Below, one piece after another: positions 14,639 through 16,631 of a stretch of 34,229 bases of DNA. Origin of the DNA: Candidatus Omnitrophota bacterium (GTDB lineage: Bacteria > Omnitrophota > Gorgyraeia > Gygaellales > Profunditerraquicolaceae); the NCBI GenBank assembly GCA_026387265.1, contig JAPLLZ010000021.1:1-34229 (forward strand), given 5' to 3'. The translations under genes and the position numbers were made by a program. Positions within the stretch are counted from its first letter, which is position 1. Every line of letters begins with the position of its first letter. A model generated the notes under the pieces. It saw nothing but the letters and a program-made list of their open reading frames with translations, did not search any database and had not been told where the DNA came from.

Positions 14639-14719
14639 TTAACCTAAATTAGGTTTTCTGCCTTTATTCGCTTTCTTGGAACGCCAATTAAGTTTTCCCC
14701 TACGTTTTCTTTTTCCCAT
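14639..14719 (-). CDS. 26-residue highly basic peptide, bTHX-like
   Basis: An ORF of 26 codons starting MGKRKRRGK and ending KGRKPNLG, with more than half its residues basic. The pattern MGK-x-RRGK followed by spaced Lys/Arg and a late Pro resembles bTHX, a 26-residue ribosomal small-subunit peptide known from Thermus; the similarity is by eye only. The ATG at 14719 lies immediately downstream of the GIY-YIG element. Its original Shine-Dalgarno (AAAGGA) is now on the far side of the element, and GGGG from the element end occupies the same spacing. It is followed by the ZIP gene. Confidence 0.6.
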   Translation of the reverse strand: MGKRKRRGKLNWRSKKANKGRKPNLG

Positions 14720-14721
14720 GT

Positions 14722-14983
14722 TTACCCCGTTAGAGATAGGAAACGCTTCAGCCGATTCTTCAGATAGCGTTTACCCATTCCTGTTTTTAAATATCTTTCC
14801 CTAGTAAATGCGTCTTCTTTATCAATACAACCCTCATAATACACTAATTCAAAAGGGTCTCTGTTTTTAGTCGATGTTACTTTTGCCTGCATTATGTTCT
14901 ATGAAGCGTTTCCGTAAATCACCAGTTGTGCCGGTGTAGTACTTGTTATCTTTTATGCTTCTGATTACGTATGTATATACCAT
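14722..14983 (-). pseudogene. GIY-YIG (URI-type) nuclease, frameshifted
   Basis: Read from ATG 14983, the frame gives YTYVIRS, KYYTGTT, DLRKRFIEHN and then stops. One base removed from the AAAA run (TTTT at 14881-14884 on plus) restores the usual continuation: STKNRDPFELVYYEGC, the Glu/Arg-rich RERYLKTG, and KRYLKNRLKRF. The intact version would be 86 residues, the normal size of stand-alone GIY-YIG proteins, ending SLTG encoded by the terminal repeat; its TAA stop comes from the flanking TTTA copy. Catalytic-site equivalents (Tyr of the GIY-like and YIG-like motifs, Arg and the His of EHN) are kept. It may be a decayed gene, a sequencing error, or need a frameshift. Confidence 0.85.
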
Positions 14984-15004
14984 GCGCCGTAATCTCTAAC
15001 GGGG
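14725..15004 (-). mobile_element. Minimal GIY-YIG insertion element with 13-bp terminal inverted repeats
   Basis: CCCCGTTAGAGAT (14725-14737) and its exact reverse complement ATCTCTAACGGGG (14992-15004) bound a 280-bp unit holding only the GIY-YIG frame. TTTA directly flanks it on both sides (14721-14724 and 15005-15008), as expected for a 4-bp target duplication. Deleting the element plus one TTTA joins AAAGGA to the next ATG at the ideal five-base spacing. No transposase other than the nuclease frame is present. An internal inverted pair GGAAACGCTTC/GAAGCGTTTCC lies at 14739-14749 and 14903-14913. Confidence 0.8.
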
Positions 15005-15005
15005 T

Positions 15006-15650
15006 TTATCCTTTATAATAATTTTGCGGTACATTCTGTACAATAAAACGGCCGGCTTCAATAATACAGTCGTAAATAACCTTGCCCATCGGAGTATCTA
15101 CATAATGGCTAAAACCGCTCCTAAAAGCCCTATCCTGTGGAAATTTTATTTTCTTCCCGGGATGTTCCACTACCTGGCTTTGGATATCCCGGCTGTTGAT
15201 TACTTCCGAAGTAGCCCGATCAATAATCTTCAGGCTTAATTGCATGTTGGCTTTATTTAAAACTTCACCTAATAAACCACCCATAAAACCGCTAGCGCTA
15301 CTTCCGCCGCCAGCTAAACCGCTCTTGCCACCTGAGTTTTCCGGTACAAACTCCTCAATCCCGATACTAATAATAATATCCGCCTCTTGGGGCGCAACCA
15401 GCATAAAACGTTTTGTTCTATTTAAAATGTTGACAAGATATTCCTTAAGTGCCGCACTAACCTGGACATCAGCGCTGGATGTTTTTAATTCAAAATCATT
15501 AACGGAAATTTTAACTTGCGGCCCCCGATACGAATCCGATAAATCCCCAACAGAATTTTTATCCAATACAGAATGGGGTTTTGACGAAAAACACCCGCTC
15601 AGGGATAATAATATTACTATACCACTTAATAACTTTAAACCATTTTTCAT
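15006..15650 (-). CDS. Outer-membrane-type lipoprotein, CsgG/LpoB-like
   Basis: A 214-residue protein with a lipoprotein signal: Lys near the start, a hydrophobic run and the lipobox LSGC with Cys20. The mature part has an alternating strand pattern (VKISVNDFEL, ADIIISIGIEEFV, ANMQLSLKIIDRATSEVI) and a Gly/Ser-rich loop at about 108-125, resembling CsgG/LpoB-type lipoproteins; a specific role is not assignable. The final codons and TAA stop (15008-15006) contain the AAAGGA that once served the following peptide gene. The GIY-YIG element starts right at this stop. Confidence 0.7.
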   Translation of the reverse strand: MKNGLKLLSGIVILLSLSGCFSSKPHSVLDKNSVGDLSDSYRGPQVKISVNDFELKTSSADVQVSAALKEYLVNILNRTKRFMLVAPQEADIIISIGIEEFVPENSGGKSGLAGGGSSASGFMGGLLGEVLNKANMQLSLKIIDRATSEVINSRDIQSQVVEHPGKKIKFPQDRAFRSGFSHYVDTPMGKVIYDCIIEAGRFIVQNVPQNYYKG

Positions 15651-15992
15651 GCTTGGTTTTTAATATATTACCGATTAACCGTACTGTCAAGGAGAATTGG
15701 CCGGTTAGGCCACACCAACGCAACTCCACATAAGCGTTGGGTGCCCATCAACTAATACCGCGCAATTCCAATTAGCGCGGGGTGCAAAGCCTGAGGGGAC
15801 ACCGACGCAATACCTATTAGCGTCGGGTGCCAACGCCCTAAGGTCACACTAACGCAATTTCGCCACCTGGCGAACACCCGCGCAATTTGCGCTACCTAGC
15901 GCATACCAACATAACTCCTATTAGTGTTGGGTACCAATCAGCGCGGAGTGACCAAAGTTAACGTTAGGTGCCCCCCACGGTTAGGTGCCCGC
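15651..15992. repeat. Gap filled with a cluster of degenerate REP-like palindromes
   Basis: No gene is seen here. At least four palindromes share arms near CACCRACGC and GCGTYGGGTG around a CCTATTA-like centre: 15713-15743, 15756-15784, 15800-15829 and 15905-15932. Between them are related hairpins such as CGCCACCTGGCG (15860-15871). A nearly identical unit occurs at 30271-30300, again next to the CGCCACCTGGCG-like palindrome. The units vary in sequence and spacing and lack a conserved direct repeat. Such clusters may serve as transcription ends or be mobilised by a REP-associated transposase elsewhere. Confidence 0.75.
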
Positions 15993-16631
15993 TTAAAATA
16001 GTTCAGCTAAATCCCCGATTGCAGGAATAATTTTAAACGGCTGCTCTCTTCTAATTTCCGATTTACTGCTTGAACCGCTGGTTACAATTATGGTATTAAT
16101 TTTTGCGCGCCTGCCGGCCTGGGCATCAATAGCCATATCACCGACATATAAAGCCTGGGATTTCTTAAGCGCAAACCGCTTAACTATTCTATTTAACATC
16201 TCAGGATGCGGCTTACTATGCTTGGACTGATCCGCGCAAAGAACATAGTTAAAAAAGCCGCTTAAACCCAAATGCTTTAATAAAATGCGGGAAAATTTAC
16301 TGGGCCGGTTACTAGCTACTGCCAATTTATAACCTTTATTTTTTAGGCGGCGTAAAAGAGTTCTAACCTGTGGATATAGATGCGAATACTTAAGCAGGCT
16401 ATGCTTATGGTGAGAGCGATACAACTTTAATGCGCGTTTTAAATCTTTCGGCAAAACATACGGTTTAAATAAGTTTACATCTCCCCACCCCACCAAACGC
16501 CGAATAGTGTTTGAGCTCTGCGTTCTTAACCCTAAATTACGCATCAAATAATTGAAGCTTTTTTCAATTGCAGAATAAGCATCAATCAAGGTTCCATCTA
16601 AATCAAAAATAATTAATTTAATATTTTTCAT
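15993..16631 (-). CDS. HAD-superfamily hydrolase, phosphoglycolate-phosphatase-like
   Basis: A 212-residue phosphatase-type protein. Motif I is DLDGTL with nucleophile D10 and acid D12. Motif II is VASNRP, motif III is the lysine of SKPHPEM, and motif IV is YVGDMAIDAQAG. A helical cap lies at about 20-90. The family acts on small phosphorylated metabolites; phosphoglycolate or pyrophosphate are typical, but the substrate is not fixed by sequence. It stands between the palindrome cluster and a terminator hairpin, probably as a single-gene unit. No clear Shine-Dalgarno sequence precedes the ATG. Confidence 0.85.
   Translation of the reverse strand: MKNIKLIIFDLDGTLIDAYSAIEKSFNYLMRNLGLRTQSSNTIRRLVGWGDVNLFKPYVLPKDLKRALKLYRSHHKHSLLKYSHLYPQVRTLLRRLKNKGYKLAVASNRPSKFSRILLKHLGLSGFFNYVLCADQSKHSKPHPEMLNRIVKRFALKKSQALYVGDMAIDAQAGRRAKINTIIVTSGSSSKSEIRREQPFKIIPAIGDLAELF

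Follow-up and report, generated by a model that had tools for sequence, protein, structure and literature searches.

A frameshifted copy of a probable minimal transposon family whose only gene encodes a GIY-YIG nuclease

The window analysed here, a stretch of 34,229 nucleotides (G000:C14:1-34229), is part of the 1.56 Mb draft genome of an Omnitrophota MAG. At positions 14725-15004 it carries an element of 280 bp, delimited by its inverted ends, its flanking duplication and its alignment with relatives of 279 bp, and with a GIY-YIG nuclease gene on the minus strand. The terminal inverted repeats are 13 bp long and perfect: CCCCGTTAGAGAT stands at 14725-14737 on the plus strand, and the repeat next to the start of the gene (14992-15004, minus strand; 5' end) is its reverse complement. 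The target-site duplication TTTA (TAAA on the minus strand) occupies 14721-14724 and 15005-15008, and a single copy of it is present in the empty sites of congeners. Read on the minus strand, the first repeat encodes the C-terminus of the nuclease (...LSLTG), and the TAA stop of this frame (14724-14722) lies within the adjacent TTTA copy; the upstream lipoprotein gene terminates inside the other copy, with its stop at 15008-15006. A previous sequence-only reading of this DNA had described the exact repeats bounding 280 bp, the TTTA duplication, the terminal repeat coding for SLTG and the stop given by the target copy, and all of these were confirmed. No RNA family, tRNA or tmRNA was found within the window.

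That reading had also assumed one intact GIY-YIG frame, which is not what the element contains. The N-terminal part (14886-14983, minus strand, with its ATG at 14983-14981) begins MVYTYVIRSIKDNKYYTGTTGDLRKRFIEHNAGK..., has the GIY, YIG and Arg motifs and gives a PF01541 match with internal stops. The C-terminal part (14722-14884, minus strand) translates as ...STKNRDPFELVYYEGC...KRFLSLTG up to the TAA in the duplication and is one base out of phase with the first. We aligned the element with the copy of G006 and with an intact G000 copy assembled from two contig ends, and found exactly one surplus base in the window copy, near 14885 (280 bp versus 279 bp in the aligned relatives with open frames). 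Because the related copies are open and this one has an extra base, the window copy is, by sequence comparison, a frameshifted pseudogene of an 86-aa nuclease ending in ...KRFLSLTG. A programmed frameshift was ruled out, since the G006 and the intact G000 copies are single open frames, and an assembly error is the less likely source of the extra base.

Two genes define the insertion site. Upstream lies a CsgG-like lipoprotein gene (15006-15650, minus strand; Pfam CsgG, E 1.4e-7) and downstream a gene for a conserved 26-aa basic peptide, MGKRKRRGKLNWRSKKANKGRKPNLG (14639-14719, minus strand), near-identical in 21 of the 21 congeners examined. The peptide has no match in Pfam; it is reminiscent of small basic ribosomal proteins, e.g., bTHX, which we take as a lead only. 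The region at 15690-15990 is non-coding and words such as GCGTTGGGTGCC/AGCGTCGGGTGCC recur in it; a search over 15650-16020 scored nothing as a repeat.

With a nearby ZIP-family gene and the 26-aa peptide (MGKRKRR...) as landmarks, we followed the locus through 21 genomes of the genus. The element is missing from 19 of them, G022 among these (...TATAAAGGATAAAAAACATGGG); G000 contains a single copy, and G006 a tandem pair (TAAA-element-TAAA-element-TAAA). Orthologous loci without the insert, which the sequence-only reading had proposed to look for, are thus common. The same reading had argued that removing the element restores a perfect spacing of the ribosome-binding site: the site is indeed empty in relatives, but the spacing was off by about 3 nt (real empty sites AAAGGATAAAAAACATGGG in G022 and GGGGTAAAAACGTGGG in G017 versus AAAGGATAAACATGGG predicted from the window). 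Among the empty nineteen, a different palindromic stretch (ACACCCCGCGC...GCGCGGG...) is present at this locus in G021 (L096), G009 (L104) and G020 (L111), which suggests a site where insertions, or the turnover of terminators, are frequent.

The window copy is one of many. There are 13 matches to PF01541 in G000, and the same ends accompany GIY-YIG sequence at five or more further places of this genome; four of these are at contig ends, as expected of near-identical repeats. The pattern CCCCGTTAGA occurs 33 times in G000 versus 5 times for the reversed control pattern. The genome also has about 13 short palindromes with the ends of the window element (44-110 bp where both ends are exact), one of them 21 bp past the end of the window (C14:34250-34314), and these are often flanked by 4-bp direct repeats (TAAA, TGAA, TTGA, CTAA). 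The GIY-YIG element of G047 has a variant end, CCCCGTTCGAAAT. Allowing up to one mismatch, we counted 94 instances of this end in G047 (control 2) and none in G000, and about 45 palindromes of G047 have this variant of their resident element. The GIY-YIG element of G264 bears the end YCCCGTTAGACC, which is found 185 times in that genome (control 0), the listed occurrences pairing at short distance. Some short elements of G264 stand in tandem exactly 4 nt apart (e.g., C1:13934-14051 and C53:7143-7258), a spacing expected if a new copy enters the duplication left by an earlier one. Among 39 elements of G047 and G027, the 4-bp duplication is perfect in 26 and matches at three of four positions in 10 more, while shuffled pairings of the same elements gave a mean of 6 perfect duplications and a maximum of 13. 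Overall, the duplicated 4-mers include TAAA, TGAA, TGAG, CAAA, TTGA, CTAA and TGGA.

The sequence-only reading had counted ends without a GIY-YIG gene as evidence against its proposal. Such ends are frequent, in the short non-coding palindromes, and they match the resident GIY-YIG element genome by genome. Because of this genome-specific match, the palindromes are, judged by their behaviour, best read as non-autonomous derivatives of the GIY-YIG element. G047, G264 and G000 all contain what is understood by MITEs, i.e., short non-coding elements with the ends of a coding element of the same genome. Between such ends, no coding element besides GIY-YIG was found in G000 and G047. We also considered, and rejected, that such ends might bound a larger element that had escaped notice: the unpaired ends of G047 belong to short palindromes, lie at contig edges or are single, and no larger coding element was recognised at the single ones.

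A scan of the genome collection confirmed at least 548 relatives, and we kept the best 80. According to their record titles, these 80 cover at least 10 phyla, including Omnitrophota, Planctomycetes, Desulfobacterales, Aminicenantes, Auribacterota, Acidobacteria, many groups of Patescibacteria, Bacteroidetes, Cloacimonadota, Endomicrobia and Schekmanbacteria, among others. Inverted-repeat ends (score at least 9) were found in 77 of the best 80. With a threshold of 12, such ends were present around 47 of the 56 related GIY-YIG genes and in none of 51 control windows 500 bp away, which rules out chance inverted repeats. The coding elements mostly measure about 265-300 bp, with terminal inverted repeats of roughly 10-17 bp (usually YCCCGTTAGA...). 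In most groups they duplicate 4 bp of the target, either TRAA (TTYA on the other strand) or TGAG; the non-coding palindromes with the same ends measure about 25-125 bp. We did not use the agreement between end sequence and protein distance as evidence, since both are inherited on one DNA and agree under any mechanism.

The sole gene encodes a GIY-YIG nuclease of about 90 aa (PF01541, E 1.5e-14), in which the catalytic Tyr, Tyr, Arg, His and Glu are invariant across 45 sequences. Its predicted structure (pLDDT 84) is closest to the folds of the UPF0213 protein 1zg2 and of Slx1. In a tree of 132 proteins (83 columns, weak support), most UPF0213-like genes lacking terminal inverted repeats fall outside the clades of the elements. 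A small clade without such repeats is nested within them in this weakly supported tree (L067, L069, L070, L380, L386), possibly representing copies that lost mobility and were then retained.

Many GIY-YIG elements of relatives are inserted in start codons, with the organisation ATGAA, then YCCCG...CGGGR, then TGAA. The nuclease (MNPVR... or MSPVR...) begins at the ATG of the host gene and stops at a TGA that the duplicated target provides. The element finishes with G or A, and this base together with the TG of the duplicate forms a GTG or ATG that opens the host frame. About 34 GIY-YIG elements lie inside ATGA start codons in this way (duplicated bases TGAA/TGAG), and so do most palindromes of one genome. 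The rebuilt starts open at or near the conserved starts of the families concerned: NrdR, TrpS, HisD, NusA, the PHP domain of DnaE, CTP synthase, a YchF-type GTPase, DnaJ, McsB and iPGM. When partnered elements were chosen by the 15-mer ATGARYCCCGTTAGA, the same four bases were repeated at the right in 37 of 46. Of the 384 genomes of the phylum, 59 contain this 15-mer, with 58 occurrences in G264 by itself, and its reverse is almost absent. The start codons of nrdR and of a glycosidase-like gene are empty in some congeners and filled in others. At the glycosidase-like locus (L314, L315) the end of the element, CCC CGT TAG, gives the overlapping upstream gene a stop, and therefore both overlapping neighbours stay readable. 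Short palindromes are also present in the start codons of phage genes, on the phage contigs L395, L401 and L411, with TGAA duplicated. A second GIY-YIG subfamily with other ends (CCCCGCACCTTCTT and similar) inserts in start codons likewise.

Ends beginning with T, which rebuild ATG and not GTG, were found in 23 of 34 elements at start codons and in 1 of the 41 at other sites (Fisher p 5e-10); this looks like an adaptation to the start-codon niche, though the elements are mutually related. All 34 GIY-YIG insertions in start codons are in sense orientation, a count to be read knowing that the class label itself requires a sense TGA, and no antisense insertion (TTCA/TTCAT) was found among the duplicated GIY-YIG elements. 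The sense bias could result from selection for expression or from a directional mechanism. Across the 384 genomes, those with start-codon sites tend to contain close GIY-YIG relatives as well (odds ratio 35, p 9e-13 at the strict threshold; odds ratio 6 at the loose one), in a test that includes some of the nuclease elements in its own counts and takes no account of phylogeny. In some genomes with several start-codon sites, e.g., G351, the threshold applied yielded no close relative of the nuclease, although the assemblies are incomplete. Neither the short palindromes nor the start-codon insertions of relatives figured in the sequence-only reading.

The short direct target duplication, made in most groups, is absent from one clade. 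Elements whose proteins end in YLTG (L138-L196, e.g., L145, L153, L168, L192, from Bacteroidetes, Patescibacteria and others), together with scattered others, have TTYA, the element, then TRAA: the flanks are inverted instead of duplicated, and no consistent duplication was found further out. Recombination between copies (inversion) could give inverted flanks sporadically, but hardly as the rule of a clade.

These elements have the anatomy of DNA transposons: terminal inverted repeats, a short target duplication, and presence or absence at orthologous sites. The proposal of an inverted-repeat element with target duplication and a GIY-YIG nuclease as its sole gene is backed by the empty sites, the many copies, the varied 4-bp duplications and the many phyla; where the sequence-only reading called the element GIY-YIG-driven, the anatomy has been borne out and the driving role is what we infer, the nuclease being the sole gene found there. 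We thus think that the window probably holds a dead copy of a minimal transposon family mobilised by this enzyme. We favour, with somewhat less assurance, the broader reading that this is an undescribed class of transposons present in many phyla, with the nuclease of about 90 aa as the transposase and one large branch specialised in start codons, where the elements borrow the ATG and ribosome-binding site of the host gene and hand back a GTG or ATG, and with miniature derivatives in dozens of start codons of one genome. In such a mechanism, the nuclease would recognise paired or hairpin-forming ends of the element and cut the target with a 4-nt stagger, host gap filling would yield the 4-bp duplication, and strands would be joined by host functions. 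The recognition of hairpin-forming ends is plausible because the predicted fold matches Slx1, a cutter of branched DNA. GIY-YIG nucleases hydrolyse DNA and are not known as strand-joining enzymes, which is why joining is assigned to the host. This counts against the explanation, as do the clade with inverted flanks and genomes such as G351. We know of no GIY-YIG chemistry among prokaryotic transposases.

DDE insertion sequences and their MITEs typically show inverted ends, 4-bp duplications and miniature forms. On a rival view, the palindromes are MITEs of the usual kind, mobilised by a DDE or HUH transposase that is encoded elsewhere, has escaped notice and recognises the YCCCGTTAGA ends, and the GIY-YIG gene is a captured passenger. 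In incomplete genomes, an autonomous partner could be missed. Yet the survey of the ends in G000 and G047 found no DDE transposase between them, Pfam recognising GIY-YIG only, and the nuclease is intact and catalytically conserved across phyla, which is unexpected in a passenger. Moreover, two GIY-YIG subfamilies with different ends act alike. We regard this explanation as unlikely. What differs from DDE insertion sequences is precisely the small nuclease standing alone, the start-codon target and the rebuilding of the start codon; internally unrelated miniature copies with only their ends in common recall the type II sense of MITE (PMC10969869). A replicative or hairpin-mediated route like that of IS200/IS605 or of REP/BIME palindromes with their RAYT, in which a GIY-YIG enzyme takes the place of the HUH one and the single-stranded hairpins at the ends are cleaved at the tetranucleotide of their foot, would suit the near-perfect palindromes of the short elements and their preferred tetranucleotide at the foot, as well as the nearness of the fold to UPF0213 and Slx1, the latter cutting branched DNA, and it might accommodate the clade with inverted flanks. 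REP/BIME systems are also high-copy short palindromes with a foot tetranucleotide and one resident gene. However, the varied, exactly repeated 4-mers resemble true target duplications, which IS200/IS605 elements are not known to make, and we give this route little credence. Instead of an HUH (Y1) transposase and a GTAG-type foot, we found a GIY-YIG fold and TAAA, TGAA or TTTA feet, the TRAA/TGAR tetranucleotide is duplicated, and the ends are common to the gene-bearing element and the palindromes.

The GIY-YIG domain with its conserved active site is that of the free-standing homing endonucleases (I-TevI, seg type), the classic homing enzymes, and NCBIfam gives a weak match, under its cut-off, to group I intron endonucleases. 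Spread of such an enzyme by gene conversion between alleles is nonetheless hardly credible here: homing requires flanking homology and insertion into a cognate allele, whereas these elements, with inverted ends and a 4-bp duplication, occupy many unrelated host genes with only about 4-5 bp in common, and non-coding palindromes with the same ends insert too. Penelope-like retroelements use a GIY-YIG endonuclease in their insertion, with target duplication as here; they differ in having a reverse transcriptase, for which an element of about 280 bp with short inverted ends has no room, and no such match was found in it. The nearest folds, those of the small UPF0213/YhbQ-like proteins and of Slx1, belong to single host genes without inverted ends. 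A survey of the GIY-YIG family from 2006 points out that the mobile DNA which carries a homing enzyme is not what that enzyme recognises (PMC1564403). Rickettsia palindromic elements, compared by description, are likewise palindromes tolerated at coding genes, with no known mobiliser, and offer a lead (PMC10969869); they are about 150 bp long and lie inside frames.

Our literature search (GIY-YIG transposons, start-codon palindromes, UPF0213, Omnitrophota repeats), with subscription papers and preprints outside its scope, found this family undescribed. Relative to the literature searched and to general knowledge, we could find no described bacterial transposon that uses a GIY-YIG nuclease or a start-codon target. 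The 2006 survey leaves open a role of further GIY-YIG members as molecular parasites (PMC1564403), and the words nuclease and start codon are absent from a 2024 review of prokaryotic MITEs (PMC10969869). Should the nuclease be all that is needed for movement, the element would rank with the smallest known autonomous transposons, and GIY-YIG would join the short list of transposase chemistries. It would then become testable how some 90 residues handle both the recognition of the ends and the choice of the target. The reading would also explain the many multi-copy 'GIY-YIG nuclease' genes of Omnitrophota, Patescibacteria and Bacteroidota, and the non-ATG starts of genes adjoining them. The start-codon habit makes this a rare mobile element whose insertion appears built for tolerance in essential genes, such as dnaE, pyrG, nusA, trpS and gpmI.
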